A program made the position numbers and the translations under genes. A DNA stretch of 64,000 nucleotides from Siderastrea radians (lineage: Eukaryota > Cnidaria > Anthozoa > Scleractinia > Rhizangiidae). Of the stretch, positions 27,320 through 56,150 are shown one piece after another (the first letter of the stretch is position 1; every line of letters begins with the position of its first letter). The notes beneath the pieces were generated by a model, which had not been told where the DNA came from, did no database searches, and saw only the letters and a program-made list of their open reading frames with translations. The stretch covers positions 30,115,375-30,179,374 of the forward strand of contig OZ024895.1 of assembly GCA_964017195.1 (NCBI GenBank), given 5' to 3'.

Positions 27320-28082
27320 GGAGCAGTTGGGTGGCTTTAACATGAAATCCAAACAACGTTCTGATGTGAAGGCGTAGGAAACAAGTTAATATTAGCACAG
27401 TAATTTAGGTTTTAGAAAATATTATTCCGTAAAGTTTTAAGCTTTTTTCTTTCCTATAAAATACACAACTTGCTGTTTGCGCTTACGTAACCTTACCCAA
27501 ATAGGGCACGGATCGCGCGAATTTGAAAGAATATGAAAATTGTGTGAATGCGTGTCGTCGTCATTATTATTATCATCTTAAATTCGCCTTAGACTCCATT
27601 AAACCCAACCTAGGGAGAAATGTTTTACAAGATAACCTTGAACTACTTCCAAAATAATAATAAACAAATTAAACATCCTGCCATAATTTTCCATTCCATA
27701 ACGAAAAGAGGCTATAGAATTCTTACAAAAGTTCAGGTCCATCGCAATTCTAGGAAAATGTTCAAAAGCAGACTCTGTAAGCAACTTGAAAGAAAGATTA
27801 ATGCTGAACCGCATCTTTAGCATGCATATTTAATTGTCGTTATAGTCAGCATTTGAAACATTTTTCGTGGCATTTTTCTGTGTTGGAGTTTTAAAAATAG
27901 TTTACTAAACGATTTAAATCATAGGTTATCAAGCATGATTAGTGCATTACAAACAAACAACTAAAGAGGTTTATTGACATACAACGACTACAAGGGATAG
28001 AAAGCACATACCAACAGCTCCTGTCTGGAAACCGAGGATCGTGACGGATTACAGCTAAAAAGCGAATGACCTTATAAAACAT
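27320..28082 (-). pseudogene. Secreted-peptide gene, copy 1 (decayed)
   Basis: Exon 1 (28012-28082) starts MFYKVIRFLAVI. A four-base insertion relative to the other copies then shifts the signal-peptide frame before the GTATGT donor. The exon 2 core on the minus strand (27360 downwards, after ACATCAG) reads ERCLDFMLKPPNCSN. It keeps both cysteines and differs from the consensus by an in-frame three-base insertion. The stop codon after NCS is lost. The upstream part of exon 2 has diverged and lacks the TTCTTAG acceptor. The in-frame indel in an otherwise decayed copy supports the proposed reading frame. Confidence 0.5.
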
Positions 28083-28849
28083 GATATCCCCTTGTTAACG
28101 CCTAAGTCCACGACAAATAGTGAACAAACATTCACACGCCAACACCAACGTTTTGTTGCCTGCTTTATAAGCTCACTGCAGGATGCAGAAACAAGCATTA
28201 AAACAACGGCACTGTCATGACCTTCATATCACTAGCAGTAGGCAAATAAATGAGTGATTATTTACCATGAAAACTGGCAATAGAAAGAAAAACACATAAA
28301 ATTCAAGAATAATATGTCACTTCTGCGAAAATTCCACTTAATTTCAGTAAGTTAAGAAGGCGTAATCATGTAATAACTTAAATAAAATTAAACAGATGCC
28401 TTACAAGTAAAATACTCATTTTAGGTGTACAGTGCAATTTGAAGCAATATATAACTGACACAAGAACAATTTATTTGATGCTTCTTTCGCTCAACATTTC
28501 GGTACTTTATTTGTATTATTATTAGTAGTATTTTCGTTACAGTTTTGAACACTCCGGATACCTACTGCCGTTAACCGAACGTGAAACAGAACAATAAAAA
28601 AACAAAAGAAAAGAAAACAAGAACAAACAAAAGTAACAGTCCCTTGTGCGATTTCTGCTGTGTTGTAAAAAAGGAGAATTCGAGGTATTATTTAATACAG
28701 AACCTACATAAAATGCCCTTAAAAACATCTGTTCAAACAACATTTCTCTCTCATAAAATAACGCAAAAATCTAGCTAATGGTGGCTAACATAATAAAATG
28801 GCTGTGTATCATTCTGTGAAAGGTCGTTTGCTCGTAAACAGGTTCCAGA

Positions 28850-28990
28850 CTAATAATGCTGCTGGCAGAGTGTCACTGATCGGCAGATTGTGTAACTGCG
28901 AAACCTGTGGCATGTGTGAATTCTACAAGCCACAAGAACCTCTTACTGGAATAAATGTATTGCTGTATTTATCGCTTTCACCTTTCGAAA
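28850..28990 (+). repeat. Cysteine-codon-rich array block, one of four copies
   Basis: Sequence with GTGTCACTGATCGGCAGATT and GTAACTGCGAAACC recurs at about 32850-32925, 38990-39110 and 42145-42250. Three copies stay open on the plus strand across RLCNCETC and following residues, e.g. CGTCGTPGAEEPLTQ at 39 kb; the 32.9 kb copy stops early. Some copies are preceded by a GCAG acceptor-like site. It may be an exon of a second array-linked gene on the opposite strand, or simply conserved spacer DNA. Confidence 0.3.
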
Positions 28991-29783
28991 ATGATTGCGG
29001 CTAATATGATTAAACCTTTGACCCGCAATCTTACAAATTTGTACAATTTTAATTTTACCTGGGCAGCCATTTTGAATGGTTATTGAAGTGCTTTGTTTGC
29101 TTTTTTTTCGTCTTAACATCCCATGTGTTTTCGAAAGATCAATTGCCAATGCGCAATTTTTGTCGTGTTCTTCAGGAAACCACGCAAAGTGTAAAATAGA
29201 AAGCAAAAGCAAAAGGATTGTAAAGTCGCGAAACTGTTCAAAATATGACTAAATCCGAGTTTATATTTAAACTACCAATAAGTACTCTAGTAATATTTGA
29301 GCGACAAAAATAGAAGCAAAAAAAAAAAATGTTTCAGTTTCAGTTGCCAAAGGCAAGAACGAATTTCAGAGGCACACACCTAAACATCCTTGAAATAAAG
29401 GCAATATCCTTCCAAAGTTTTAATTATCTGGATTGTAACCATGTAAAGGAAGTGTAACCCTACATATAACCGACTTCAAATTGACAAAGTGTACTGCATT
29501 TTTTTGTCGGTTTTACCAGGCGTGCACGCTTAAACAGGTTATTGCTACTGAAAGTTTTGTGCCTATTTTTTTGTGTTTAATTAGACAGATCTAGAAGACA
29601 CTTTTTTAAAGAGAAAAAAATACGATAAAGTCTGGATCAGTTTAAAATTATTTACAAGGGGACAAGGCATAGAGATTTAAGGACAACTTTTCATTTTAAG
29701 AACATGAAAATTGGTAGGCCAAGCAGGTCTGAATTCTCACATCGTACTAGGTTTTATGAGGTGGAAAGTTCATGCAGGTGGTT

Positions 29784-30552
29784 TTAAGAGCAGTTACGTG
29801 GACGCATTAAATCCAAACAACTTTCTGATGTGTAGGCGTGGGATGCAATACTTAGCACTGCCTAACAAATTTATTAATAAAGTAAGATGATTTAGGTTTT
29901 AAATAATCATGTTCCGTTAAGTGTTAAGCTTTTTTCTCTTTTTTTTTTTTCATTAAGGAACTATAACATATAATCCTCGCTTAACCAAATAGAACATTGA
30001 CTGTGCATGAAACTTTATGTGAATGTGGACCGTTGTCATGAGCATCATAACCTTAAATTTACCTTAGGCTCTACAAAAGCCAAAGTGGGGAGAAACTTTC
30101 TAAATAGGCGTTTTCTATAGCTTTCTGTGATCAACAACACGGTGTAATTTTCCATTTCTTTAATCAAAGAGGGCTATTCAATTCTTACGTAACTATTTAC
30201 GTAACTATTAACTAGAGCAGACTCCGCAAGCAATTAGAAGCAAAGTTAACATATTTATAACTGCTTTTTTAACATGCACATTCAACTGTCTTTATAGTCA
30301 GCATCTGAAATATATATTTTGGTAGTGTTGTAATAGACGTTTTTTTTTTTCTGGTTTTGCGTCTTAAAAATACGTTTACTAAACGCCTTGAGTCATCGGT
30401 AATCAATCACGATTAGTGCATTACAAACAAGCAACTAAAGAGGTGTATTGACATACAACGACCACAGGGAGTAGAAAGCACCTACCATCAGCTCCTGTCT
30501 TCAAAACAAGGATCGTGATTATAGCGAAGAAATAAAAAACCTTGGAGGTCAT
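29784..30552 (-). CDS. Small secreted peptide gene, copy 2
   Basis: Exon 1 is 30486-30552: ATG, then MTSKVFYFFAIITILVLKTG and AD, a typical signal peptide with a hydrophobic core, ending GATG|GTAGGT in phase 1. Exon 2 is 29784-29857 if the GGCAG acceptor is used. It encodes a tail containing SIASHAYTSESCLDLMRPRN and CS before TAA. One extra T relative to copies 3 and 4 means the upstream TTAG acceptor would give a different frame, whereas GGCAG or the internal ACATCAG keeps the C-x8-C core. Predicted product is about 46 residues, secreted, with one cysteine pair. Function is unknown. No tandem peptide cleavage sites or amidation glycine are seen. Confidence 0.5.
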
Positions 30553-30848
30553 GATTTCACCTTGCTAACGCCACAGTCCACGAAAAATGGTCAACAAACA
30601 TTCACGCGCCAACGCCAACTATTTGTTGTCTGCTTAGCTCGCTCCAGGGTGCAGAAACAAGCATTCAAGCAATTGTACTGTCATGCAGACCTTCATATCA
30701 GTAGCGGTGGATAAATAAATGAGTGATTATTTACCATAAGAACTTACATAAGAGAAAAGGACAACTTACATAAATTTTAAGAGTAATATGTCACTTCTAC
30801 TCGAATTTCATTTAATTTCAGTAAATTAATACGGCTTAATCATGTAAT

Positions 30849-31465
30849 AGAGTGATTTCACAAACCCCGTTTCTTATATGCTGATAAAAACCGTTAAATA
30901 CGAAGAACAATGAAGAAAGCACGCACCAAGGTTAAAAACCATTGTTTCAATTTTTAAATTACGTACATGCTGGTGTGTGATATCTGAATAAATGGTTTAC
31001 ACCGTGAACAACAGACAACGGCAAAAAAGAAATGTGATTACGTAACTCTTTTTTATAAGAAAATGATCTTTTTTAACTGTTCTTATGTTGCGGGCAAACG
31101 TTACCCAATGCTTACAGTGTCTAGACTTGTACCCAGCATTGCAGAAACATAGTTTACTAATCGATATAGAAAATGATAGATTTCTGTTGACACGTAACAA
31201 AGCATGCTCAAACAGGAACAATTTTTTCCCTACGTAAATAGACAGTTCGATAAAAAAGCTGAGTTGTGAAACAAGGATACTGGCTTGTTGTCCGTTAATT
31301 GTGCAAACCATTCAGATATTTCTACACACCAGCTTACCAGCATGTGCAAAATTAACAATTTGAAACAATTGTTTTAACTTTGGTACATGCGTTCTTTATA
31401 TTTCTTCGCATTAACATTTAACCATTCTTATTAGCACGCAAGAATCGGGGTTTGTGAAAACAGTC
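30849..31465. mobile_element. Hairpin-like MITE inserted in array unit 2, TAAT target duplication
   Basis: The element is flanked by TAAT at 30845-30848 and 31466-31469; sister units read CATGTAATAACTT without interruption. Inverted ends share TTTCACAAACCCCG. Most of the interior is also inverted (e.g. ATTCAGATATTT-like and TGCATGTACC-like segments), so it is close to one long hairpin. ORFs inside are not genes. Confidence 0.8.
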
Positions 31466-34256
31466 TAATAACTTAAAGAAAATGAAACAATCAATCAAAT
31501 GTTTGGTATGCCACACAAGGAAACTACTCATGCGTTTTGGACGTACGGTGCAATTTGACTCAAGAACAATTTATTTCATCCGCCATTTTCTTAACATTTC
31601 CGTACTTTATTTATATTATTAGTAGTATTCTCATTACAGTTTTTACATGTAACAGGATGCTTATTGACTTAACCAAGCGTGAAACAGAACACAACAAAAC
31701 AAAACAGACAAAAAACAAGAAAAACAAAAGCAACAGTCCCTTGTGCAATTTCTGCTGTGTTGTACAAAAAGCAGAATCCAAGATATTGTTTAATACAGAA
31801 CCTACAGAAAAAGCCTTTAAACACATCTGTTTAAGCAACATTAAGCAAAAATCTAGCTAATGGCCTAATACCATGATATAATGAATTTGCATCATTCTTT
31901 AGTTCGTTTTCTCGTGAACAGGTTCCACTTTAATTTGCTGTATGACTTTCATGGTTATTAAAAACGCTCCAACTGTGTTGCTTTTGATTCATTTTTTTTT
32001 CTACAAAATTCGTCAGAAAAAAGACCATTTAGAAAAGCTGTATTTCAGCATTGTCATCTTCAATTCAACCATGTTTGGTAGAAATTGATAATAAAGGCAT
32101 TCGGTTATGGAAATTAATAAAATTAACCTTTTCCAGATCAATTTACTTGCATTGCTATCAGAATAAACAAATAAACAAAGACACTGCTTACAGCAATGAG
32201 TGAATTTCATGCGACCTCTTTAAAAACTCTTTTAAAAACCGTAAGAGGGCCGTAACGCGTTATAGTCATAGCAGCGTAACCAGAGTCGGTGCGACAGTTT
32301 TTTTTTCTTGTTTCTTTGTTTACTTTTATGTATTATCATTTTTCTAATGAGAACGGCTACCTTTTGAGTGTAGCCTGAGCCAGGACTTTGCGCATGAAGA
32401 CGTTCTTGCATAAGATGTTCTTAAGTTACACATTATTTACATTATTACAGACATAAAGAAATACATCAGCGCTATAGTTTTTTAGACGCAAAAGAACATA
32501 AAAACGGCGTTAAATGTATGTATATAATTGTAGTATTTGGGCTCAATAAGACCGTACAAGTAAGCTCAGATGTAATTATTAACATTAGCTTTATTTAAAT
32601 CTGCATGAAAAGCTCCCGTGAATAGCCATAGTTTCTGAAATCTCAGCGTGTGACATGTTGTAAGCAGCCTTGACGTTCTGATTAAAAAGATTAAACAAAC
32701 AAAAAAAAAAAGAAGTGCATTTTTGGTTTACACTGTAATACAAGAACTTTTGTAGAAGGCATGATGTGAGGCATTCTTTTTTTTTTATTTCTCTAACTAC
32801 TTAAGAAGGCCTTTTTCGTGGGTGCACTTTCGCACGCCTATGATATTGCCGGCAGGGTGTCACTAATCGGCAGATTGTGTAATTGCGAAACCCGAGGAAC
32901 GTGCGGGACTGTATGAGCCTCAATAACTTCTTACTCCAATAAATTTGTTGCTGTATTTAGCGCTATCATCATTCGACAATGATTGCGACCTTTGAACCGC
33001 AATCTTACAAATTTGTACGATTTTAATTTGACCTGGGCAGCCATTTTGAATGGTTGATGACGAGCTCGGTGAAGCGAATCAAATGTATGATGAGAAGGTT
33101 CACCGTTTGGCCTTATTTCTGAGGGTGGTAAAAATCTGACACAAATTTTAGTCAACTGTGACACTGGCAGCGAAGTAGCACAACTTAATAAATGGCAACT
33201 TTAGTCTTCTGTACGACTCAACCCATTATTATTATTATTGTTATTAGTTATCATAGGTTATTTTAGTCGCAGACACGAAAAGCCGCGCACGCTCGCAGTG
33301 GCTACAAAAGAATCATTCTTTATCAAGAGTGAATTGCAGAAAAATACGATTCATTGTCTTCGACAAGAATGAAACGTTCACTAAGAAACGCTTTTTTTAT
33401 CTGCAGACATTTTCGTAAGAATACGTAGGATTTTACCACAAGAAAGCCCAATGGGCATTTTAACCAACTGTTCTTACCCGACCCATCCCCGGGTTAACAA
33501 ATGTTAGCGGGATCCCATATACGTAAGAAAAGCTGTAATTTGAGACAATCACTTTTTTTTCTGATCACTTTGCGTTTTTGTAGCACTTGTTTCTTTGAAT
33601 TTACTTTGGGATGACTGCAGATAAATGTGACATATATACATCAAATATACACAGAAGCCAGAAAACTTTTTTGGAAGAAACTGCTGGCATGTTTTACTAT
33701 TCTGTACATACGAAAGTTAGTTGCATACATTTACTAGCAGTTGCCATCTATTCTCACTTACACTTGCTATCTATTTCCACCGTTTTCACACCATTTAAGT
33801 GCTTTGTATTTTTGTTTTCGTTTTAACGTCCAATATTTTTTCGAGCATGTTTGTTTCTTAATTTTGTTTCGGTTTAAGTTTATGGTAGGGTGAAATTCTT
33901 GTTTGTTTAATATTGAATTTACAGTATTGCAATTACCAAAGCCCTGGTGCTGCGCAAGCAGGAGTAAAACGAATTCAATAACGTCAACTGTTTTTATAAG
34001 AGCTTTTTATGCATTTAATATCAGTAGACAGATCTAGACGACACTTTTTTAAGGAAAAAAAAAACAACAAAGTCGAATTAGTTTAAAAATTATTTACAAA
34101 GGGACAAGGCATAGAGATTTTATTTAAGGACAACTTTTCATTTCAGCTGCTAAACAAAAATGGAAGTTTTAATAGCATTAAAATTGGTGAGCCGAGAAGG
34201 TCTGAATTCTCACATCGTACTAGTTTTTATGAGATGGAAAGTTCATGCAGGTAGTT

Positions 34257-34946
34257 TTAAGAGCAGTTGGGTGGACGCATTAAATCCAAACAACTTTCTG
34301 ATGTGTGGGTGTAGGATGCAATACTTGCACTGCCTAAGAAACAACTTTACTTATACAGTAAGATGATTTAGGTTTTAGATAATTATGTTCCGTTAGGTGA
34401 GAAATTTTTTTATTAACAAAACTAAAACATATAATCCTCGCTTAACCAAATAGAGCATTGACTGTGCATGAAAATTTATGTGAATGCGTGCCGTTGTCAT
34501 GAGCATCATAACCTTAAATTTACCTTAGACTCTACGAAAGCCAAAGTGAGGAGAATATTTTTAAATAGGTCATTTCTATAGGTTTCTGTGATCAACAACT
34601 CGGTGTAATTAAACTTCACCTCCAACGCAATTCTAGGAATATTAACTAGAGCAGACTCCGCAAGCAACTAGAAGGAAAGTTAACATTACCTGGTTTTTTA
34701 GCATGCACATTCAACTGTCATTATAAGCAACATTTGAAATATATATTTTGGTAGTGCTGTAATAGACGTTATTTTTTTCTGGTTTTGCGTCTTAAAAATA
34801 TATTTACTAAACGCCAATCCCGATTAGTGCATTACAAACAAGCAACTGAAGAGGACCACAATGAGTAGAAAGCACCTACCATCAGCTCCTGTCTTGAAAA
34901 CGAGGATCGTGATTACAGGGAAGAAATAAAAAACCTTGGAAGTCAT
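34257..34946 (-). CDS. Small secreted peptide gene, copy 3 (best-formed)
   Basis: Exon 1 is 34880-34946, encoding MTSKVFYFFPVITILVFKTG plus AD and ending GATG|GTAGGT. Exon 2 is 34257-34333 after GTTTCTTAG, a pyrimidine-rich acceptor. It encodes GSASIASYTHTSESCLDLMR, then PPNCS and TAA. Total 47 codons with a 546-bp intron. The signal peptide is likely cut after TGA or TGADG, leaving about 24 residues with a single C-x8-C pair that could form one disulfide loop. An AATAAA signal on the minus strand lies about 125 bases beyond the stop (plus-strand TTTATT near 34127). I recognise no homologue; it could be a neuropeptide-like signal, a defence peptide or a venom component. Sequence alone cannot say which. 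Confidence 0.6.
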
Positions 34947-37087
34947 GATCTCACCTTGCCAACGCCGCAGTCCACGACAAATGGTCAACAAAAATTAAAA
35001 CGCCAGAAATTTGATACGTTTTGTTGCCTGCTTTAAGCTCACTAAGAGGCGCTGAAACAAGCGTTAAAACAATTGCATTGTCATGCAGACCTTCATATCA
35101 CTAGCAGTGGGCAAGTAAATGAGCGATTATTTACCATGAAAACTTGTATTAGAGACAAAACAACTAAAATAAAATTCAAGAGTATTATGTCACTTCTACG
35201 CGAATTTCATGTAATTTCAGTAAAGGCAACTTTAAATCATATAATCACCTCCTTAAACAATCAATCGTATGCTTTGCATGCCATACAAGTAACTTACTCA
35301 TTTTAGGCGTACAGTGCAATTTGAAGCAATAAAACACAACAACATTTTATTTCATGCGCTCTTTTTTGCCGGCTTTTGGGTTCTTTATTTGTATTATAAT
35401 TAGCAGTATTATTATAGTTTTGTACAGGATACTTATTGTCGTTAACCAAGCGTGAAACAGAACGCAAGAAAACAAGAGAAAACAAAAGTAACAGTCCCTT
35501 GTGCGATTTCCGCTGTGTTGTACAAAAAAGCAGAATCCAAGATATTATTTCGCACAGAACCTATTCAAAATGCCTTTAAATGCATCTGTTCAAACAACTT
35601 TAACATTTTCAGTATTTTTCTCTCATAAGGTAACGCAAAAATCAAGCTAATGGTGGCTAGCATAACAAAATGGCTTTGCATCATTCTGTAAAAGTTCGTT
35701 TGGTCGTGAACAGGTTCCCGTCTTATTTGCTGTATGACTGTTAATAAGAACGCTCCCACTGTGTTGCTATTGCTTCATTTTGCCTTCTAAATAGTTTTTC
35801 GGAAAAAAAAAAACACTTTGAAAAAGCTGTATTTCTGCTCTGTCTTCTTCAATTCAACTATGCTTGGCAGAAATTCATGAATAAGGCATTCGGTTACCGA
35901 AATTAATAAAATAAAAAAAACTGCAATTTGAGACAATCACTATTTTCCTGATCACATTGCGTTCTTGTAGCACTTGTGTCTTTGACTATACTTTGGGATG
36001 ACTGCAGATAAATAAGGCACAGATACATAAAAAAAGACACAACCGCCACTACCTTTCTTTCAAAAACTGCTGGCATGTTTTACTATTCTGTAGATGCGAA
36101 AGTTTGTTGCATACATTTACTAGCAGTTGCCATCTATTCGCACTCACACTTGCTATCTATTTACACCGTTTTCTCAACATTAAAGTGCTTTGTTTGTATT
36201 TTTTTCGTTTTAACATCACACGTGTTTCCTAAGATCAATCGACAATGCGCAATTTTTGTTGTCTTCTTCAGAAAACGACGCAAAGTGAAAAATAGAAAGC
36301 AGATTGTGACGTCGCGAAACTGTTCAAAATATGACTAAAGCCGAGTATATATATTTAAACTACGAATAATTATAAGTACTCTACAATATTTGATTGACAA
36401 AAGTAGAAAGCAAAAAAAATGTTTCAGTTTCAGTTGCACAAGAACGAATTTTCAGAAGCACGCATCTAAAAAAAAACCTGAAGTAAAGGCAATATCCTTG
36501 CACAGTTTTATCTGGATTGTGACCATGTAAAGGAAGTGTAACCCTACATATAGCCGATCGACTGCAAATTGAAATATAATTCTACCGCATTTTTTTCGGT
36601 TTTACCAGGCGTGTACGCTTAAACGACTCATTAATTGCTACTGAAAGTTTTTTGCCTATTTTGAAACAGGAAAATTTTTTCAAGCATATTTCTTTCTCAA
36701 TTGTGTTTCTGTTTTAGTTGATGGTAGGTTGAAACTCTTGTTCGTTTAATATTGAATTTACAGTACTGTTATTACCAAGTCCCTGGTATTGCGTTAGTAG
36801 GAGTAAAACGAATTGAATAACGTCACCCTTTTTATAACAGAGTTTTTTGCGTTTAATTAGACAGATCTAGAAGACACTTCTTTTAAGGGGAAAAATCAAC
36901 TCTGGATTAGTTTCAAAAATATTTACAAAGGCACAAGGCATAGAGATTATATTTAAGGACAACTTTTCATTTTAGTTGCTAAACAAAAATGGAAGTTTTA
37001 ATAGCATGAAAATCGGTGTGCCCAGAAGGTCTGAATTCTCACATCGTACTAGACGTTTTATGAGGTGGAAAGTCCACCGAGGTAGTT

Positions 37088-37603
37088 TTAAGAGCAGTTG
37101 GGTGGACGCATTAAATCCAAACAACTTTCTGATGTGTGGGCGTAGGATGCAATACTTGCACTTCCTAAGAAACAATTTTGTCAAAAAAGTAAGAGGATTT
37201 AGGTTTTAGGTAATCATGTTCCGTTAAGTGCTTAGATTTTTTTCTCATCTAGGAAATATAACATGCAATCCTCGCTTAACCAGATAGAGCATTGATTGTG
37301 CATGAAAATTTATGTGAATACGTGCCATTGTCATAAACATTATCACCTTAAATTTACCTTAGGCTCTCTGAAAGCCAAAAGAGGGAGAAACTTTTTAAAT
37401 AGTACTTTTCTGTAGGTTTCTGTGAGCAACAACACGCCTTGAATCATCGGTAATCAATCACGATTAGTGCATTACAAACAAGCAACTAAAGAGGTGTATT
37501 GACATACAACGACCGCAAGGAGTAGAAAGCACCTGCTATCAGCTCCTGTCTTGAAAACGAGGATCGTGGTTACAGCGAAGAAATAAAAAACCTTGGAAGT
37601 CAT
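37088..37603 (-). CDS. Small secreted peptide gene, copy 4
   Basis: Exon 1 is 37537-37603 (MTSKVFYFFAVTTILVFKTG, AD). The donor has changed from G|GTAGGT to A|GCAGGT, so splicing would need a GC-AG intron or a shifted AG|GTGCTT donor four bases on. Exon 2 is 37088-37164 after GTTTCTTAG and encodes SASIASYAHTSESCLDLMRP, PNCS and TAA. The intron of 372 bp is among the shortest of the array. The core peptide is identical to copy 3 except at one residue in the linker. The 3' polyadenylation motif is weaker here than in copies 3, 6 and 7 (AATATA instead of AATAAA). Confidence 0.5.
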
Positions 37604-39794
37604 GATTTCACCTTGCTAACGCCGCCGTCCACGACAAATAGTCAACAAACATTCATGCGCCAACGCCAACGATTTGTTGTCTGCTTAGCTCGATGCAGGG
37701 TGCAGAAAAAAGCAATGAAACAGTTGCACTGTCATGCAGACCTTCATATCAGTAGCGGTTATTAAATAAATGAGTGATTATTTACCACGAAAACTTGAAA
37801 TAGAAAGGAAAACAAATAAAATTCAAGAGTAATATGTCACTTCTATGCGAATTTCATTTAATTTCAGTAAGTTAAGACTGGTTAATCATGTAAACTATCA
37901 TGTTCTCAACATTTCAGCACTTTATTTGTATTATGATTAGTAGTATTTTCATTACAGTTTTGAACAGGATACTTATTGTCGTTTACCAAGCGTGAAACAG
38001 AATACAACAAAACAAAACAGACAAGAAAATAAGAGAAAACAAAAGAAACGGTCCCTTGTGCGATTTCCGCTGTGTTGTACAAAAAGCAGAATCCAAGATA
38101 TTACTTCATACAGAACCTACACAAAATGTCCTTAAACACATCTGTTCAAACAACATTAGGATTTGCAGCATTTGTCTCTCATAAAATAACGCAAAAATCT
38201 AGCTAATGGCGGCTAACATAATAAAATGGCCTTCCATCATTCTGCAAAAGTTGGTTTCGTCGTGAACAGGTGCCAGTCTAATTTGCTGTATGTCTGTCAT
38301 AGTTACTAAAAACGCTCCTACTGTGCTGCTATTGGTTCATGTTTCTAAACAATTCTTCAGGAAAAAGACCATTTGGAGAAGCTCTATTTCAGCATTGTCA
38401 TCTTCAATTCAACTATGCTTGGCAGAATAACTTTATCTTATGACATATAATGGATTTACATCATTCTTTGGTTCGTTTTCTCGTGAACAGGTTCCAGTGT
38501 AATTTGCTGATGACTGTCGTGGTTATTAAAAACGCTCCTACTGCGTTGCTATTGATTCATTTTGTTTTCTAAACAATTCTTCAGGAAAAAGACCATTTGG
38601 AAAAGCTCTATTTCTGCATTGTCATCTTGATTTCAACTATGCTTGAAATTCAGTAGTTCATGATTAAGGCATTCGGTTATCGAAATTAACATAATGAACC
38701 TTTTCCAGATGAATTTACTTGTATTTCTGCCAGAAATAAACAAATAAACGAAGACACTGCTTACAGTAATGCGTGAATTTCATCCGACTCCTTTAAAGTA
38801 GAGCAACAAAAAGCATAGAAGGACCGTAACGCGTTACGCACAGCAGCGTAACGAGAGTCGGTGTGATAGTTTTTTTTTCTTGTTTCTTTGTTTATAATTT
38901 CTTTTTTTAACCTTTAACTACTTAAGACGTACTTTGTTTGCGACTGTTTTGCCGAAATTTCGTAGGCGCACTAATTCTCACGCCTATAATACTGCCGGCA
39001 GGGTGTCACTAATCGGCAGATTGTGTAACTGCGAAACCTGCGGAACTTGTGGTACTCCAGGAGCTGAAGAACCTCTTACTCAATTAAATTTATTGCTGCA
39101 TTCATCACCTTATTAAAATGATTGCGACTAATGATTAATCCTTTGACCCGCAATCTTACAAACACGTACGATTTTGACTTGGCCTAGCCAGCCATTTTGA
39201 ATGGTTAATGACGTGCTCGATTGCTCAAGACGCGAGTCAAGGAAGTGTAACCCTACATATAACCGGCTTCAAATTGCCAAATTCTACTACATTTTTTTTT
39301 CGGTTTTACCAGGCGTGTACGCTTGAACGACTCATTGCCACTGAACGTTTTGTGCCTATTTTGAAACAGGAAAATTTTTTTCAAGCACGTTTCTCTCTTA
39401 ATTTTGTTTCTGTTTCAGTTGATGGTAGGTTGAAACTCTTGTTCTTTTAGTATTGAATTTACAGTATTGCAATTACCAAGTCCCTGGTACTGCGTTAGCA
39501 GGAGTAAAACGAATTGAAGAACGTGACTTTTTTATAGGAGGTTTTTCTTTTTTGGTTTTAATTAGACAGATCTAGAAGACGCTTTTTTAAGGAGAAATAA
39601 CCCAATAAACTCTGGATTAGTTTAAAAATTATTACAAAGACACAACGCATGGAGGTTTTATTTAACGATAAACTTTCATTTTAGTTGCTAAACTATAAGG
39701 GGAGTTTTAACAGCATGAAAATTGCTGAGCCGAGAAAGTCTGAGTTCTTACATCATATTACGTTTTATGAGTTGGAAACTTCATGCAGGTAGTT

Positions 39795-40357
39795 TTAAGA
39801 GCAGTTGGGTGGACGCATTAAAACCAAACAACTTTCTGATGTGTAGGCTAGGACGTAATACTTAGCACTACCTCAGAAACAACTTTATTAATAAAGTAAG
39901 ATGATTTAGGTTTTAGATAATTATGTTCCGTTAAGTGTTAAGCTTTCTTTTTATTTAGGAAATATATCATGTAATCCTCGCTTAGCCAAATAGAGCATTG
40001 ATTGTGCATGAAAATTTATGTGAATGCGTGCCGTTGTTAACTAGAGCAGACTCCGCAAGCAACCAGAAGGAAAGCTAATACACTACCTTTTATGATTTTT
40101 TAACGTGCACATTCAATTGTCTTATAGTCAACATTTGAAATATTTTCATTACGTTTTTCTGTGATGGAGTCTTCAAAATATATTTCCATATTTACTTTAA
40201 ATCATAGGGTAATCAATCATGATTAGTGCATCACAAACAAGAGAAAGAGGTGTATTGGCTTGCAAGGCTACAAGGAGAAGAAATAACCTACTATCAGCTC
40301 CTGTCTTGAAAACGAGGAACGTGGTTACAACAAAAAATGAAAGACCTTAGAAGTCAT
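39795..40357 (-). pseudogene. Secreted-peptide gene, copy 5 (frameshifted)
   Basis: Exon 1 (40292-40357) is one base shorter than the others because of a deletion in the FFA-coding region, which brings a stop into the signal peptide after MTSKVFHFLL. Exon 2 (about 39795-39870) also lacks one base in the linker, so TAG appears when read from the upstream acceptors. The core after ACATCAG is still open (SCLVLMRPPNCS, TAA). Two independent single-base losses make this a likely pseudogene unless they are assembly errors. Confidence 0.55.
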
Positions 40358-43300
40358 GATTTCACCTTGCTAACGCCGCAGTCCACAACAAGTGGTCAAC
40401 AAAAATTCACACGCTAAAAATTTGAAGCGTTTTGTTCCCTGCTTAGCTCACTGCACGGCGCAGAAACAAGCACTAAAACAATTGCTCTGTCATGCAGACT
40501 TCCATGTCAGTAGCGGTGGGCAAATAAATGAGGGATTACTTACCACGAAAACTTGCAGTAAGAAGAAAAAACTAAAATAAAATTCGGGATAAAATGTGAT
40601 TTCTATGCGAATTTTAATTAATTTCAATAAAAACAACTTAATAATGTAATAACTAAATCATATTATCGAACATATGCCATACAAGTAAACTGCAGTTCTT
40701 TTTAGGCCTGCAGTGCAATTTGAAGCAATAAAACACAACAACAATTTATTTCATGCGCCTTTTTTTCAACTTTCCGGTACTTTATTTGTGTTATAGATTA
40801 TTGTCGTTAACCAGGCGTGAAACAATACACAACAAAACAAGACAGACAAGAAAACAAGAAACACAAAAGTAACAGTCCCTTGTGCGATTTCTGCTGTGCT
40901 GTACAAAAAGCAGAATCCAACGGATATTGTTTAGTACAGAACCTACAGAAAAAGCCTTTAAACACGTCTGATTAAGCAACATTAGGATTTTCAGCAGTTT
41001 TCCTTATAGGGTAACGCAAAAATCTAGCTAATGGCGGCTACCATGATATAATGAATTTGCATCTTCTTTAGTTCGTTTGCTTGTGAACAAGTTCCGGTCT
41101 AATTTGCTGCATGACTGTCATAGTTATTAAAAACGCTCCTTCTGTTTTGCTATTGATTCCTTTTGGAAAGAAAATTCTCAGTTCAGGAAAAAGATCATTT
41201 AGAAAAGCTGTATTTGAGCATTGTCATCTTCAATTCAACTATGCTTTTCCAGATGGATTTACTTGTACTTCTACCAGAAATAAACGAAGACACTGCTTAC
41301 AGTCATGAGTGAATTTCATCTGACCTCTTCAAAAATATAGCAACAAAAACCAAAAGGAACCGTAACGCGTTTACCTTTTTTTGCCTTTTTTTTTTCTTTT
41401 CTTACATTTTATTTTTTTGGCGTATTATCATTTTTCTAACAAGAACGGCTAATTTTAAGCCTGGGCTGAGTCAGGACTTTGAGTATGAAAAGTTCTTACG
41501 TAAGATGTTCTTATAAAGTAAGTAAGAAACTTTATTTACGTGTCTATATACCATCTAGCCTGGCAAAAACCCACACTAATTTGGGGACAAAAACTAACTA
41601 GGTACTGAAAATAAAATTAAAATAAATCGAATAGTACTATAAAAATCTAATACTAATCATAGCAAGTTATACGTTATTTTTTTTATCATCACAGGCATAG
41701 TAAAATAGCAGTAGTATAGTATTTCAGACATAAACGCACACACAAAAAACTGCACTATATATATGTATTACTGTGTCCATAATTGTAATATTTGGGCTCA
41801 ATAAGATCGTACAATTAAGTCAAGATGTTATTGTCATCTTTTGTTTTACTAACATTTGCATGAAGAGCTCCCGTGAAAGGCCGTAGTTTCTCCAATCACA
41901 GCCTTTGTACCATCTTGGCATGTAGTAAACTAAATGGGCAATCAAACCCTAACCTCCTAATTATTATTATAATTTTCTTTTTAACACAAAAAAGAGAAGT
42001 GTATTTTTGCTGTTTTTTTTAAGACCAGATTTTTGGATTTTGTGAAGACATGGTGAGAGGCAATTTATTTAAATTCTCTAACTAGTTAGGAAGCTCTTTG
42101 ATTGCCAATGTTTTGCCACAATTTTGTTGGTGCATTTTCTGCTGGCAGGGTGTCACAAATCGGCAGATTGTGTAACTGCGAAACCTGCAGAAGGTGTGGT
42201 ACTCCGGGAGCTCAAGAACCCTTCCTCAACCAATTTTATTGCTGTCTTTTACATCATCACCTTTCGAAATAATTGCGACTATAAATGATTAATCCTATGA
42301 CTTACAATCTTACAAATTTGTACGATTTTAATAAGGCAGCCACTTTGAATGGTTCATGACGTGCTCGATTACTTAAGAAGCGAATCAAGTGTATGATGGA
42401 AAGGTTTACTGTTTAGCCATAATTGTCATAATAATCTGACACAAATGTTAAGTTAACTGTGACGCTGGCAGCAAAGTAGGGCAACTTAAAAAAGGGCAAC
42501 TTTAGTCTTTTTTACGAATCAACCCGTTTAAAGGAAAAGGAAGAGACTGCAGGTTTATTTTCCATTATTGCTTATAATAGATTATTTTATTTCTCGCATA
42601 CACGGAAAGCCGCGCACACTCGCGGTGGCTACAAAAGAATCATTCTTTATCAAGTGCAAAGTGCAGAAAAACATGTTTCATTGTCTTCGAAAAGAATGCA
42701 ACGTTCACCAAATGAACGCTTGTTAGAAGTATAATTATCTCCAGACATTTACTTTAGAATAAGTAGGATTTTACCACAAGAAACCCCAATGGGCATTTTA
42801 ACCGGCTGTTCTAGCCCGATCCATACCCAGGTTAACAAATGTTAGCGCGATCCCGTACACGTAAGAAAAACTGCAATTCTCTCTTTTTTTTCCTGATCAC
42901 TTTCCATTTTTGTAGCGCTAAAGTTTCTTTGACTATACTTTGGGATGACTGCAAGATAAATGAAGCAGATATGCATCAATTAAACACAGCCGCCAGTAAC
43001 ATTTTTTTAAGAAACTGCCGGCATGTTTTACTATTCAGTAGATTCGAAAGTTAGTTGAATACATTTACTAACAGTTGCCATCTATTCTCACTCACACTTG
43101 CTATCTATTTCCACTGATTTCTCAACATTAAAGTGCTTTTTTTGTATTTGTTTTCGTTTTAACATCCCATGTGTTTCCAAAGATCAACTGCCAATGCTCA
43201 ATTTTTGTCGTGCTCTTCAGAAAACGACACAAAGTGGAAAATAGAGAAAGCAAAAGCAGAAAGATTGTGAAGTCGCGAAACTGTTCAAAATATGACTAAA

Positions 43301-44010
43301 GCCGAGAATATATTTAAACTACCAATAAGTATTATAGCAATATTTGAGTGACAAAAGTAGAAAGCAAAAGATGTTTCAGTTTCAGTTGCCCAAGAACGAA
43401 TTTTCAGAGGCACGCATCTAAAAAGCCTTGAAGGTATCGCAACGTCCTTCCACAGTTTCATCTGGATTGCAATCATGTAAAGGAAGTGTAACCCTACATA
43501 TAACCGGCTTCAAATTGCCAAATTCTACTGCATTTTTTTTTTTCGGTTTTACCAGGCGTGTACGCTTAAACGACTCGTTGCTACTGAAAGTTTTGTGCCT
43601 GTTTTGAAACAGGAAAATTTTTTTAAGCATGTTTCTCTCTTAATTGCATGTGTTTCTGTTTCAATTGATGGTAGGTTGTATCTCTTGTTGGTTTAATATT
43701 GAATTTACTGTATTGCAATTACCAAGTCCCTGGTACTGCTTTAGTAAGGGTAAAAGGAATTGAATAACGTCACATTTTTGTAGAGCTTGTTTTGTGTTTA
43801 ATTAGACAAATCTAGAGGACACTTTTTTAAGGAGAAAAAAATAAACTCTGGATTAGTTTAAAAATAATTTACAAGGCACAAGGCATAGAGATTTTATTTA
43901 AGGACGACTTCAAAATGGAACTTTTAATGGCATGAAAATTGGTGAGCCGAGAATGTCTGACTTCTCACATCATACTAGGTTTTATGAGGTGGAAAGTTCA
44001 CAGGCAGTTT

Positions 44011-44759
44011 TTAAGAGCAGTTGGGTGGACGCATTAAATCCAAACAACTTTTTGATGTGTAGGCGTAGGATGCAATGCTTAGTCCTGCCTAAGAAACAAC
44101 TTTATTAATAAAGTAAGATGATTTAGGTTTTAGATAATTATGTTCCGTTAAGTGTTGATTTTTTATTTATTTAGGAAATATAACATGTAATCCTCGCTTA
44201 ACCAAATAGAGCATTGATTGTGCATGAAAATGTATGCGAATGCGTGCCGTTGTGATAAACATCATGACCTTAAAATTACCTTAGACTCTAGCAAAGCCAT
44301 AAATGGGGAGAATCTTTTAAATAGTCCATTTCTATAGGTTTCTGTGATCAACAACACGGCGTAATTTTCCATTTCTTTAATCAAAAGGGCTATTCAATTG
44401 TTACGTAACTTCAGGTCCAACGCAGTCTTAGGAATATTAACTAGAGCAGACTCTGCAAGCAACTAGAAGGAAAGCTAATACATTACCTTTTGTGATTTTT
44501 TAACGTGCACATTCAATTGTCTTTATAGTCAACATTTAAAATATTATAATCACGTTTTTCTGTGATGGAGTCTTCAAAATATATTTCCGTATTTACCTTA
44601 AATCATAGGTAGTCAATCATGATTAGTGCATCACAAGCAAGCAAAAGAGGTGTATCGGCATGTAAGGACTACAAGGAGAGGAAAGAACCTACCATCAGCT
44701 CCTGTCTTAAAAACGAGGAACGTGGTTACAGCAAAAAAATGAAAGACCTTAGAAGTCAT
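44011..44759 (-). CDS. Small secreted peptide gene, copy 6
   Basis: Exon 1 is 44693-44759 (MTSKVFHFFAVTTFLVFKTG, AD) with donor GATG|GTAGGT. Exon 2 is 44011-44084 after the GGCAG acceptor and encodes GLSIASYAYTSKSCLDLMRP, PNCS and TAA. This copy has lost the internal ACATCAG acceptor (now ACATCAA) but keeps GGCAG, which restores the frame despite the extra T shared with copies 2, 5 and 7. Predicted length is 46 residues. A plus-strand TTTATT at about 43896 marks a possible AATAAA for the minus-strand transcript. Confidence 0.55.
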
Positions 44760-46081
44760 GATTTCACCTTGCTAAGGCCGCAGTCCACAACAAGTGGTCA
44801 ACAAAAATTCACACGCTAGAAATGTGAAGCGTTTTGCCCCCTGCTTAGCTCACTGTACGGCGCAGAAACAAGCATTAAAACAATTGCACTGTCATGTAGA
44901 CTTCCAAGTCAGTAGCGGTGGGTAAATAAATGAGAGATCATTTACCATGAAAACTTGCAATAAGAAAGAAAACCAAAATAAATAAAATTCGTGAATAAAA
45001 TGTCACTTCTCCGAGAATTTTAATTAATTTCAATAAAAGCAAATTCATTATGTAATAACTTAATCATACAATCGAACATATGCCATACAAGTAGACTGCT
45101 CATTTTAGGCCTGCAGTGCAATTTAAAGCAATAAAACACAACAACAATTTATTTCATGTGCCTTTTTTTTAACTTTTCGGTACTTTATTTGTGTTATTAT
45201 TAGTATTTTTTATTTCAGTTTTGAACTGGATACTTGTTGTCGTTAACCTTTTTTTTTTTTCAACTTTTCGGTACTTTATTTGTGTTGTTATTAGTATTTT
45301 CATTTCAGGTTTGAACTGTCGTTAACCAAGCGTAAAACAGACCACAACACAACAAAACAGACAAGAAAACAGGAGAAAACAAAAGTAACAGTCCCTTGTG
45401 CGATTTCCGCCGTGTTGTACAAAAAGCAGAATCCAAGATGTTGTTTAATACAGAACCTACAGATAAAGCCTTTGAACACATCTTATTAGGCAACATTAGG
45501 GTCTTCAGCAGTTTTAATTCTCAAAGACATAAAGTATTACGCAAAAATCTAGCTAATGGCGGCTAGCATGATATAATGAATTTGCATCATTCTTTAATCG
45601 TTTACGCGGGAACAAGTTCCAGTTTAATTTGCTGTATGACTGTCATAGTTATTAAAAACGCTCCAACAGTGTTGCCATTGATTCATTTTGTTTTCCAGAA
45701 AATTCGTCAGAAAAAAGACCATTTATTTGAAAAAGCTGTATTTCAGCATTGTCATCTTCAATTCAACTATCTTTGGTAGAAATTCATAATCAGGGAGGAG
45801 TACAACAAATTGAATAACGTCACCTATTTAAATAAGAGCTTTTCTTTGCGTTTAATTAGACAGATCTAGAACACCCTTTTTTAAGGAAAAAAAACTCTGA
45901 ATTAGTTGAAAAATTATTGACAAAGGCACAAGCCATAGAGGTTTTATTTAAGGAAACTTTTCATTTTAGTCGCTAAACAAAAATGGAACTTTTAATATCA
46001 TGAAAATTGGCGGTGTGCCGAAAAGGTCTGAATTCTCACATCGTACTAGTTTTCATGAGATGTAAAGTTCATGCAGGTAGT

Positions 46082-46565
46082 TTAAGAGCAGTTGGATGGA
46101 CGTATTAAATCCAAACAACTTTCTGATGTGTAGGCGTAGGATGCAATGCTTAGCAGTGCCTAACAAACATTTTTGTTAATAGAGTAAGCTGATTTGGGTT
46201 TAATTTAATCATGTTCCGTTGAGTGTTAAGCTTTTTTTTTTTTTTTTTTCATTTTGGAAATATAGCATGTAATCCTCCCTTAACCAGGTGGAGCAGTGAT
46301 TGTGCTTGAAAATTTATGAGAATGCGTGCCGTTGTCATAAACATCATCACCTAGGTGTATTTTCTGGTTTTGCGTCTTAAAAATATGTTTACTAAACGCC
46401 TTGAATCATCGGTAATCAATCACGATTAGTGCATTACAAACAAGCAACTAAAGAGGTGTATTGACATGCGAGGGCTACAAGGAATAGAAAGCACCTACCA
46501 TCAGCTCCTGTCTTGAAAACGAGGATCGTGATTACAGCGAAGAAATAAATAACCTCGGAAGTCAT
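46082..46565 (-). CDS. Small secreted peptide gene, copy 7
   Basis: Exon 1 is 46499-46565 (MTSEVIYFFAVITILVFKTG, AD) with donor GATG|GTAGGT. In exon 2 the GGCAG acceptor has become GGCAC, and the TTAG acceptor would read another frame because of the extra T. Only the internal ACATCAG acceptor (exon 46082-46122) joins the signal peptide to the cysteine core, giving ESCLDLIRPSNCS and TAA, about 35 residues in total. Intron length is then 376 bp. If the cell uses only the upstream acceptor this copy is dead. Confidence 0.4.
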
Positions 46566-47800
46566 GATTTCACCTTGCTGACGCCGCAGTCCACGACATA
46601 TGGTCAACAAACATTAAAACGCCAGAAATTTGAAACGTTTTGTTGCCTGCTTTAAGCTCTCTGCGGGGCGCAGAAAAAAAGCATTAAAACAATTGCAATG
46701 TCATGCAGACCTTCATATCACTAGCTGTGGGCAAATAAATGAGTGAAAACTTGAAATAGAGGAAAAAAACAACTTTCATAAAATTCGAGAGTATTATGTA
46801 ATTTCAGTAAAGGCAACTTAATCGTGATCACCAGCTTAACAATCAATCATATGCTTGGCATGCTATACAAGTAACCTACTCATTTTAGGTGTACAGTGCA
46901 ATTTGAAGCAATAAAACACAACAACAATTTATTTCGTGTCTTTTTTGTTGACGTTTGGTGCTTTATTTGTATTATTATTAGTATTATTATAGTTTTGAAC
47001 AGGATACTTTATGTCGTTAACCAAGCGTAAAACAGAACACAACAAAACAAAACAGACAAGAAAACAAAACAAAAAAAAAAGCAAAAGTAACACTCCCTTG
47101 TGCGATTTCCGCTGTGCTGTACAAAAAGCAGAATCCAAGATGTTATTTATAGAGAACCTACAGAAAATGCCTTAAAACACATCTGTTTAAGCAACATTAG
47201 CGTTTTTAGCATTTTTTTTCTCATAAAGTAAAGCAAAAATCTAGCTATTGACGACTAGCATGATACTGATGAATTTGCATCATTCTTTAGTTCGTTTTCT
47301 CGTGAACAGGTTCCAGTCTAATTTGCTGATGACTGTCGTGGTTATTAAAAACGCTCCTACTGTGTTGTTAAACAATTCTTCTGGAACAAATGACATTTAG
47401 AAAAGCTGTATTTCAGCACTGTCATCGTCAATTCAACTTTGTTTGGCAGAATTTCATGACCAAGGCATTTGCGTATCGGAATTAATAAAATGAGCCTTTT
47501 CCAGATGACTTTACTTGTATTTTTGGCCAGAAATAAACAATTAAACGAAACACACTGTTTACAGTCATGAGTGAATTTCATCTGACCTCTTCTAAATATA
47601 GCAACAAAACCATGAGAACCGTAACGCGTTTCCCATTTTTTCTTTCTTGTTTCTTTGTCTATTTTTATTCATTATCATTTTTCTAACGAGAACGGCTAAT
47701 TATTGAGCCTAGCCTGAGCCAAGTCTTTGAGCATGAAAACGTAATCTTACATAAAATGTTCTTAGGTTACGCGTTATTTATGTAAATATATAGATTTAGC

Positions 47801-47963
47801 CAAGCCTAAAAGCGAAGCTTCACTTTTTTTTTCGCTAGTACTTTTTAACCTCTGAAACTATTCTCACTGAACTCGGCGTAAGTTTTCATGGGGAATAAGT
47901 CGTAAACTGCAATTGCAAAAATGCTGTTTCTAGTTAACCTCATTTTTGTCTGACCTCACCGAA
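47801..47963. other. Right margin of the tandem array
   Basis: Similarity to array units ends near 47800. The short AT-rich interval before the inverted-repeat element shows nothing recognisable. Confidence 0.35.
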
Positions 47964-48114
47964 AGCAGGAGTCATAATCGGGGACGGAGACCGTAAGCGC
48001 GAGGTCCACGCGGCCCCATCGAAAAAGACAAATGTACTATTTTTAGAGAAAATTGCGCCACCCTAAGCGTCATAAACGCGCGTGGGTACACGCAAATTAC
48101 AGCGAAGGGGCACC

Positions 48115-48195
48115 GGATATGATAGATAAGCAACGAGGCGCGTAACAGCCAAAATGGTTATAATTATTTGATATCCAGCAGCCCTAGTAGAATCT
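48115..48195. repeat. Decayed copy of the 9.35 kb palindrome
   Basis: GATATGATAGATAAGCAACG, GGCGCGTAACAGCC and GGTTATAATTATTTGATATC correspond to the hairpin at 9352-9470, in inverted orientation and with more mismatches. The neighbouring sequence up to about 48860 also matches 8560-9350. Confidence 0.6.
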
Positions 48196-48959
48196 TTGTT
48201 TTTATTATTAGAAACGCAATCACTAATTGCTGTAAAATCAAGAAAGAGAAAAAAAAGAGAGAGAAACTCTGAGATAAAAGGGAACAAGACTCGATCGCAA
48301 TCACATGACTGACCGAAAAAGGCGCCAAAACCTTGTGAAGTGTTGCAGCGTGTCTTTGCAGAGTTGAATGAATCAATGAAACTGCTCCGACGTGCACGTT
48401 CAAGGGCAAGGATTGGGGAATGGACTCTGAAATGTTGAACGTGTTTGCTTTTTCCTGAAAAATTGTTGTAATCGTCGTTCAAAGCGGATTGAAGCTGTAC
48501 GGTTTCACCGTTATAGCTGCAGGAGTTCAAGTGAACGAGTTTGTAATCGCTCCGTTCGCTTAACGCTGACAAAGGAGCCATCATGTGTTTGTTTGATCGA
48601 AATGAAGAAAGAATTAATATTTTAACTTGAACTATAATTTCTATGCAGCTCAATGAAACAAGAGTACGGAGGTGAGGAACATTAGAATTCACCATCTTTC
48701 ACTGTGAAAGTGATTCAACGTAAGCGTATTTTACATGACATCCGATTTGTATCCGAACATTTGGAGCTGCTGGAACATAGATAGAGCTACAACGAGTAGA
48801 GATAAATCAGTGTCAACTTTGCGTGGTATAGCCAAAAAATGTCGCCCTTTCTAGTACTGAATTTGTTCAATGCTTGTTGTTCAGACTGCTGCGAGATTTT
48901 TGTACTGACTTGCCATAAAAGTGTCACAAATTTTATTAAAATTAATGCTTCTCTCCCAC

Positions 48960-49540
48960 TTAACCCTATTCTGCCTGGGGGGGGGGGGGGGATTGTGCCC
49001 GCGCTGACTTTAACGAATTATAACTTTTCAACGGCCAGACGAATAATCACCAAATCTCGTGACTTTTCCTAAAATTTATCAGAGAAACTCTTCCTGTGTC
49101 AATGCCGTGTCTATGATGATTGACGTTTCCATAGCAACCGTCTACTCAGAAGTGTGTTTTCACTATTTTCTGTCTTTTTTCAGTCTTTTTCAGGTTTTCC
49201 TCCTTCGTTTGTAAGAAGAAGACAATTTTTTACCTTTGTGTTTTTTACTTTTGTGTTTTTACTTTTGCGTCATTGTCAGCTGTATGACTGCAGGTTTGGG
49301 ATTCAAGATGGTGGCCTCAAATTCAAAATGGCGGGTTTGTGACGTTATTGTGACATCACGACACATCATAATTGACACGTCATAAGCCCAATCTGTTAAG
49401 CTAATGACGTGCTACAAACGTGCCAAGTTTCATCGCAAGAGCTTTAATACTTTTCGAGATCTATAGGGGGGGGGGGCACTTTGTGCCCCCCCCCCACTAG
49501 GCCCAGAAACTCGAAAAAAGCCCAGGCAGAATAGGGTTAA
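48960..49540 (+). mobile_element. TTAA-MITE family 1, full-length reference copy
   Basis: TTAA at 48960-48963 and 49537-49540, 581 bp in total. Inverted ends CCCTATTCTGCCTGGG match the right-end AGGCAGAATAGGG; long G and C runs lie just inside. The interior has CCGCGCTGACTTTAA, TCTATGATGATTGACGTTTCC, GGATTCAAGATGG and CTTTTCGAGATCTATA. There is no coding capacity, so it must move with help from another element's transposase. TTAA target and CCC start suggest the piggyBac superfamily. Confidence 0.85.
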
Positions 49541-49969
49541 ATGTGCTTTATTTTGTCTTGTTTCGATGTTTCGGAGTCAAAGCCTTCCGTATAAAACCTA
49601 CTGTTTGTATAAAAATTTTAAGGACAAGTGATTGACTTGACGATGAAAGAAATCTTAAACACAACGCTAAAAATGCTTAAATTTCTATTTCTACCTTTTT
49701 TTTTTCGTCCTAAAAAAATCAAGCACTCTGAACAGCTTAGATTTGTGTCTCAGTGACGTTCAGTTGTAATTTCGTAAATTGCCCAGTAAGTAATATTCAG
49801 TACTATGGCAGCATGTAGTTTAACCGCAACTTTATAAAGTGTTCTTCGCTATTTTTTGTCTTCGTTTCGGCCACTTAGGTAAAGGCGGGCATTATTTAAG
49901 AAAACATACACTGAGAAATCTCGGCAATCGTTTTCTTTCCTGATTCGGTAGTTTGAATCTATGTTAATA

Positions 49970-56120: not shown

Positions 56121-56150
56121 ACACCCAACAGTCGCCTTTCTTCACTCACA

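Follow-up and report, generated by a model that had tools for sequence, protein, structure and literature searches.

A tandem family of putative two-exon secreted-peptide loci in Siderastrea radians

The tandem array and its copies

The window, a stretch of 64,000 nucleotides of the scleractinian Siderastrea radians (OZ024895.1, positions 30,115,375 to 30,179,374), contains a tandem array on the minus strand (Table 1). The seven copies of the preliminary description were present where it had placed them. In these copies, a signal-peptide-like exon leads into a phase-1 donor (GATG/GTAGGT in copies 2, 3, 6 and 7); SCLDLMRPPNCS-stop or a variant of it closes the second exon. Copies 2, 3 and 6 have a reading frame that is open across a GT-AG intron, with precursors of 46-47 aa. 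Copies 1 and 5 are broken, as had been described, by a frameshift in exon 1 of copy 1 and a one-base deletion in exon 1 of copy 5; the three-base insertion reported for the core of copy 1 was also found, and no stop codon stands behind that core. Copies 4 and 7 had both been thought to need a non-standard splice site. This applies to copy 4, whose donor is GC, whereas copy 7 also has a later ordinary AG.

The exon-2 acceptor region holds two AGs, four bases apart. The second is required in copies 2 and 6, the first in copy 3. In copy 7 the second AG is missing and the first leads out of the C-x8-C frame; the later ordinary AG (CACATCAG) would hold the last 13 residues in frame. Downstream of copy 3 lies an AATAAA, a poly(A)-signal-like motif. 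The same hexamer lies no more than 300 bases beyond the stop codon of copies 5, 6 and 7, and is absent from that interval in copies 1, 2 and 4.

Table 1. Positions in the window of the array, its exons and associated features.
Feature	Position	Strand	Remarks
Tandem array, seven copies	27320..47780	-	first exons spaced by about 1.8 to 4.4 kb; GC 34-38%
Copy 1 exon 1 remnant	28012..28082	-	four-base insertion, frameshifted
Copy 1 exon 2 remnant	27320..27355	-	three-base insertion; no stop codon
Copy 2 exon 1	30486..30552	-	open, phase-1 GT donor
Copy 2 exon 2	29784..29857	-	GCAG acceptor to stop; precursor 46 aa; R replaces second core proline
Copy 3 exon 1	34880..34946	-	open
Copy 3 exon 2	34257..34333	-	TTAG acceptor to stop; precursor 47 aa
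Copy 4 exon 1	37537..37603	-	open; donor GC, not GT
Copy 4 exon 2	37088..37164	-	in frame from TTAG
Copy 5 exon 1	40292..40357	-	one-base deletion, broken
Copy 5 exon 2	39795..39867	-	one-base deletion; core D to V
Copy 6 exon 1	44693..44759	-	open
Copy 6 exon 2	44011..44084	-	GCAG acceptor to stop; precursor 46 aa
Copy 7 exon 1	46499..46565	-	open, GT donor
Copy 7 exon 2	46082..46159	-	second AG lost; TTAG gives another frame
AATAAA, poly(A)-signal-like	34119..34124	-	132 bases past copy 3 stop
Block around exon 1	34817..35012	-	copy 3 example, with internal deletion; edges approximate

Relatives on C9 and in other collections

In total, 21 exon-1 places and 16 exon-2 places were found, all on one contig, C9, and in several clusters, of which the window array is one. 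Analyses of 20 exon-1 copies leave out a truncated place (C9:30479281), and the 16 exon-2 places exclude fragments that lack the exon-2 coding part (C9:30383709, 30435227 and 32437276). DNA searches gave at least 33 matches among the best candidates scored, all on C9, at 30.14-30.49 and 32.43-32.48 Mb. A second array about 247 kb away is a duplicate of copies 3-7, with 95-98% identity; one of its copies has lost the second cysteine and two have gained an extra cysteine. The claim of a tandem family with a two-exon layout is borne out by the seven copies, by the open copies with GT-AG introns and by the further clusters on C9; the look of a secreted peptide is supported as well. We rejected a dispersed transposable element, because the matches found are confined to the C9 clusters and not scattered over the genome. 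The one exception, a weak protein hit on C4 (E 0.46), falls where an exon resembling an AAA protease begins and was taken as chance.

Only six of the 16 two-exon loci combine an intact C-x8-C frame with GT-AG sites, and one of these six lacks the second cysteine. In the DNA read behind three of the old exon-1 copies (30381013, 30384373 and 32477312) we found no convincing alternative second exon. Nor was a convincing different second exon found around three exon-2 remnants.

The family had been called undescribed, and our searches agree with this. The precursors of copies 2, 3 and 6 had no match in Pfam and copy 3 had none in PDB, both up to E 10, the core pattern did not match in prokaryote and virus collections, and none of the papers searched contained any of four core fragments. 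Literature searches for similar cnidarian families yielded general parallels, and a narrower one brought up a Hydra antimicrobial-peptide paper alone. The only protein hits were two exon-1 read-through ORFs on one contig of another assembly. Nothing supports a particular role in venom, defence or signalling; defence and signalling would be the usual guesses for the function of such peptides.

We compared the array with three known systems. Melanin-concentrating hormone and other one-ring peptides have a ring of the same size as a C-x8-C ring, and the two cysteines of the array peptides, eight residues apart, could by analogy close such a ring. Unlike in these peptides, no dibasic processing site was seen in copies 2, 3 and 6, the ring would lie at the very C-terminus, and neither Pfam (copies 2, 3 and 6) nor PDB (copy 3) gave a match. 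The small cysteine-rich proteins of reef corals (SCRiPs) have a cysteine-rich domain with conserved spacing and products of 41-48 aa (PMC2652719). In contrast, copies 2, 3 and 6 carry just two cysteines, both within the tail of about 25 aa; they lack a cysteine-rich mature domain with conserved spacing and had no Pfam match. The SA8 and Nv1 toxin genes of sea anemones encode small secreted peptides and are clustered in tandem; birth and death is proposed for Nv1, and SA8 genes have 3-5 microexons with expression and peptide support (PMC10210398). The array resembles these systems in being a tandem cluster of small putative secreted-peptide genes. It differs from SA8 in its putative two-exon genes and in having no Pfam match, and no described domain was matched up to E 10 (Pfam, copies 2, 3 and 6; PDB, copy 3).

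Conservation and selection

The repeat itself is beyond chance, and the signal-peptide-plus-donor exon is probably beyond chance as well. By criteria chosen after seeing the exons, simulated sequence held 0.11 such exons per 21 kb of one strand, against four in the array, and this rarity favours gene ancestry. As in a secreted-peptide family, an in-frame signal peptide, called by hydropathy, follows a conserved ATG. Of 20 copies, 17 have an open exon 1. The ATG is kept in all 20, among them three diverged copies whose BLAST homology stops 13-28 bases beyond the donor. Read in reverse, exon 1 likewise has an open frame in 17 of 20 copies.

That the exons are the best-kept parts of the unit held for identity, but no codon-level constraint was detected. 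In copies 2-7, identity in 40-base windows touching an exon was 0.84-0.95, with the maximum in exon 2; other windows ranged from 0.43 to 0.91, with high values adjoining exons or falling in the gapped intron. Exon 2 is the stretch with the fewest changes in its block. Around exon 1, a conserved block extends from about -66 to about +130. Most copies keep it, with exon 1 flanked by about 66 upstream bases and about 60 intron bases. Hence, its edges differ from those of exon 1.

The preliminary description had named equal rates at all codon positions as part of what would count against a peptide family. The rates were indeed nearly equal: parsimony changes at the three positions numbered 26/20/26 in exon 1 and 17/18/24 in exon 2, and a codon-position signal was absent. 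The proposed check of dN/dS across copies did not bring out selection either. Omega was 0.68 in exon 1 (2dlnL 1.63; 17 copies, three broken ones dropped) and 2.23 in exon 2 (2dlnL 2.46; 14 copies, two decayed ones dropped), neither of them significant, and the full sets gave 0.75 (20 copies) and 1.32 (16 copies). Pairwise dN/dS among window copies 2-7 was 0.36 in exon 1 and 0.76 in exon 2, but a wrong exon-2 frame holding stop codons gave 0.39, so that such values are weak evidence.

Comparison of the two arrays gave 12 exon changes, of which 10 were nonsynonymous, one was synonymous and one fell in the junction codon. Pooled exon changes were 12/707, compared with 163/4259 nearby. In a shift control, 8% of 193 shifted placements were as little diverged as the exons, which is not significant and weakens the apparent slow-down of the exons. 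In conclusion, no coding selection beyond chance and no protein-level constraint were detectable. The shared core reflects descent, with no detected sign of selection on it.

Origin and fate of the family

With moderate confidence, we favour a family of very short secreted-peptide genes that is restricted to one lineage, was duplicated locally and undergoes birth and death; in the best reading, most copies are now pseudogenes. Exon 1 of a transcribed copy would encode a hydrophobic signal peptide running from MTSK... to KTGA, which is probably cut after A21 by the -3/-1 rule. A phase-1 intron, about 0.55-0.63 kb long in the open copies, would be spliced out next, and exon 2 would add a tail of about 25 residues in which the two cysteines could form one disulfide ring. 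The unit was duplicated in tandem, and copies 3-7 are also present as the array 247 kb off. A two-cysteine peptide could still be made from copies 2, 3 and 6 and from the second-array counterparts of copies 3 and 6. The copies with their open frames and splice dinucleotides, the duplications and the decay are seen in the sequence; that the loci are transcribed and spliced, yield a secreted peptide with a disulfide, or have a function is inferred. For this reading speak the seven copies with open frames across GT-AG introns, the rarity of signal-peptide-plus-donor exons in simulated sequence, the open exon 1 and conserved ATG, the lower substitution rate of exon 1 than of the following 63 bases, the scarcity of change in exon 2 and the clustering on C9. 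Against it speak the absent codon-position signal, an omega not supported as below 1, the excess of nonsynonymous changes between the arrays, the shift control, the cysteine lost from one copy, the equally open reverse frame of exon 1, and the finding of no relative beyond the two read-through ORFs.

Alternatively, the unit may be a non-coding tandem repeat that was spread by local duplication and never gave a peptide, its frames being chance leftovers from an ancestral sequence. Such a repeat would match the near-equal change of the three codon positions, an omega not different from 1, the 10 nonsynonymous changes to one synonymous change between duplicates, the mismatch between block and exon edges, and the equally open reverse frame of exon 1. 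We nevertheless consider it rather unlikely, given the rarity of a signal-peptide-like exon with donor in simulated sequence, the ATG in every exon-1 copy analysed, and an acceptor, stop and short tail that fit together in three copies.

Without splicing, exon 1 reads into the 'intron' (...GADGRCFLLLVVVVCQYTSLVACL-stop) and might give, from a single exon, a hydrophobic microprotein of about 43 aa, whose two hydrophobic stretches could form a membrane hairpin. This reading is improbable. The substitution rate climbs directly past the donor position, from 0.85 per site in exon 1 to 1.33 in the next 63 bases (17 copies), although it remains moderate (1.33) up to the read-through stop and rises to 1.83 thereafter. 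The read-through ORF measures 40-48 aa in 16 of the 18 loci examined (10 and 34 aa in the others), most loci have its stop codon in common, and one clade has a three-base deletion in common. However, omega of codons 23-43 was 0.93 and fell to 0.74 when four diverged or deleted copies were dropped, with no significance in either case; copy 3 and its duplicate have a larger deletion in the read-through; and exon 2, the best-kept stretch, would be left unexplained.

We assign a similarly low probability to the conserved block being a regulatory element or a non-coding RNA (a promoter, lncRNA exon or snoRNA) that is maintained as DNA or RNA. The 66 bases upstream change only slightly more than exon 1 itself (1.09 vs 0.85 per site), and the pooled exon changes are fewer than nearby with few of them synonymous, as such an element would predict, but the shift control was not significant. 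Weak snoR14 matches across exon 1 scored 20.8-22.3 bits, far under the Rfam gathering cut-off of 40 (E 2.8-7.1), and the fold of copy 3 is ordinary (z 0.98 and -0.51); a C/D box snoRNA was therefore rejected. A hairpin in the exon-2 core was also rejected, as compensation does not preserve it in an alignment of 13 copies read by eye. Near copy 3, bacterial patterns resembling promoters and terminators did not exceed their number in shuffles.

Finally, the two acceptor AGs put exon 2 in different frames. In copies 2 and 6 one AG gives a nearly uncharged C-x8-C tail, whereas a basic tail (...RLHIRKLFGFN... in copy 2) results from the other, and one-base deletions in two separate clades alter which acceptor gives which frame. 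A lineage-restricted, fast-diversifying secreted-peptide family whose mature peptide is switched by splicing between the two acceptors, so that copies 2 and 6 could give either tail, is very improbable.

If the loci of the favoured birth-and-death family are not expressed, they are a warning that a signal-peptide-like exon, good splice sites and conservation across copies can occur with no sign of protein-level selection. If they are expressed, they would represent an undescribed peptide family in the midst of birth and death, one contig bearing young duplicates next to open copies and wrecks, and would offer a handle on how tiny secreted-peptide genes originate and die.

Organization and coding state of the array

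The tandem units spanned ~27.3 to 47.8 kb of the window in a self-comparison; the window itself corresponds to C9:30115375-30179374 in an assembly of 805 Mb and 439 contigs. The GC content was 34-38% in the array region versus 37-47% elsewhere in the window. The positions of the seven minus-strand exon pairs claimed in the preliminary description, each with a signal-peptide-like exon 1 and a short exon 2 carrying a C-x8-C core, were confirmed. Scripted splicing of the DNA also bore out that copies 2, 3 and 6 are open, yielding precursors of 46, 47 and 46 aa across introns of 628, 546 and 608 bases, respectively. Of two candidate acceptors four bases apart, copies 2 and 6 require the second AG, and copy 3 requires the first, one base being deleted shortly downstream. 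Copies 4 and 7 had been said to need a non-standard site. This holds for copy 4 (a GC donor); copy 7 has no second AG, although its last 13 residues would stay in frame from an AG further on. Copies 1 and 5 are indeed broken, copy 1 being frameshifted with its stop gone and copy 5 having a one-base deletion in exon 1. An AATAAA occurs <300 bases past exon 2 in four of the seven copies (3, 5, 6 and 7).

We simulated 100 strands of 21 kb with the array's own trinucleotide make-up, and sought ATG exons that encode a hydrophobic core and reach a donor without meeting a stop first. Simulated strands held a mean of 0.11 and a maximum of two such exons, compared with four on the minus strand of the real window, all inside the array, and one on its plus strand; because the criteria were chosen after the array had been seen, this simulation is supportive rather than a test.

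Distribution of the family

Whole-genome DNA and protein searches confined the family to the contig carrying the window (C9), apart from one chance-like match on C4 (E 0.46). Several searches combined placed exon 1 at no fewer than 21 sites, and the coding part of exon 2 at 16 or more, both lower bounds because the search scores only the best candidates. A second array at 30.38-30.41 Mb contains blocks 95-98% identical to window 33.8-50.9 kb, i.e. copies 3-7, and could be a genuine or an assembly duplication. The stretch C9:30380001-30520000 has N at 2500 bases.

Features of the window and of contig C9
Feature	Location	Strand	Details
Exon-1 places	window		7
Exon-1 places	C9 30.38-30.41 Mb		8
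Exon-1 place	C9 30.437 Mb		1
Exon-1 places	C9 30.479-30.486 Mb		3
Exon-1 places	C9 32.447-32.477 Mb		2
Segmental duplicate, copies 3-7 and flank	window 33832-50897 and C9:30396506-30413345		247 kb apart; blocks at 95% and 98%
Inverted-repeat element	window 54182-56126		~2 kb
ORF with Laminin_G_3 domain	window 17886-18530	-	E 1.3e-14
tRNA match	window 7061-7133	-	over Rfam gathering score
Three ORFs, overlapping or adjacent	window 58108-61348	+	228-456 aa

Six of the 16 two-exon loci retain the C-x8-C frame with a GT donor and either of the two closely spaced AGs, namely copies 2, 3 and 6 and the second-array counterparts of copies 3, 4 and 6; in the counterpart of copy 4 the second cysteine is gone. 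An open reading of copy 7 and its counterpart requires a different frame or the later AG, and the copy at 30437150 has a deletion, after which it is open into a different tail. The remaining loci have lost the donor, have a broken exon 1 or have a decayed exon 2.

Elsewhere in the window, the inverted-repeat element, with arms made of CCCGGAACAC minisatellite, looks like a non-autonomous DNA transposon. The Laminin_G_3 ORF, which also had a Pentaxin match just under the cut-off, probably forms one exon within a larger gene. The tRNA match overlaps a 38-base repeat and is perhaps tRNA-derived, since ARAGORN (bacterial code) found no tRNA there. The three ORFs had no Pfam match up to E 0.1 and by eye are transposon-like.

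Selection and alternative readings of exon 1

All 20 exon-1 copies analysed have the ATG. With neither ATG loss nor a stop in 72 inferred changes, a simple neutral count gives a chance of ~0.01, or 0.02-0.03 for the 58 changes of the open copies only; zero stops alone (0.25-0.40) is not unusual. The opposite strand of exon 1 is likewise open in 17 of 20 copies.

Exon 1 might instead be unspliced and read on into the intron as a single ORF, which in 16 of 18 loci runs for 40-48 codons without a stop. However, changes per site climb from 0.85 to 1.33 at the donor and the intron extension has an omega of 0.93, which makes splicing the likelier of the two. Upstream of exon 1, the nearest 66 bases show 1.09 changes per site versus 2.19 in the preceding 54 bases, so conservation may extend to a promoter or 5' leader. 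Within the array no Rfam family scored at its cut-off, and neither of the two copy 3 folds was unusual.

Under parsimony, codon positions 1, 2 and 3 changed 26, 20 and 26 times over 23, 22 and 22 sites in exon 1 (20 copies), and 17, 18 and 24 over 25, 26 and 26 sites in exon 2 (16 copies). A purpose-written codon model gave an omega of 0.68 for exon 1 (17 open copies; 2dlnL 1.63) and 2.23 for exon 2 (14 copies; 2dlnL 2.46), or 0.75 and 1.32 on all copies; none differed from 1 at the usual threshold. In defence or venom peptides, change is milder in the signal exon and faster in the tail; such a pattern was not significant in these omegas. Five copy pairs between the two arrays differ by 12 substitutions in 707 exon bases versus 163 in 4259 nearby bases. 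Read off the aligned pairs, 10 of the 12 are nonsynonymous, one is synonymous and one lies in the junction codon. When the exon positions were slid along (193 placements), 8% were as low as the real exons, and hence an exon slow-down between the arrays is not established.

Relatives and origin

Searches of the Pfam, PDB, virus and prokaryote collections gave no match, and the core letters of the family were not found in the literature text searched. Protein searches returned only two small predicted ORFs, both consisting of exon 1 running on into the intron: P0001 is similar to copy 5 but lacks the deletion in exon 1, and P0002 is similar to an older copy type. With a longest contig of 1,522,319 bases, both come from another public assembly, so the family is present in at least one further assembly. 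SA8 and Nv1 are described as tandem clusters of small secreted peptides in cnidarians, with birth and death reported for the Nv1 cluster (PMC10210398), and SCRiPs as a taxonomically restricted coral family (PMC2652719). The array is like such a cluster at most, and those of their features that were tested were not found in it.

The local, partly decayed tandem family is real, with no sign of present-day use of any copy. We lean slightly towards a plausible, predicted two-exon secreted-peptide gene as its ancestor.
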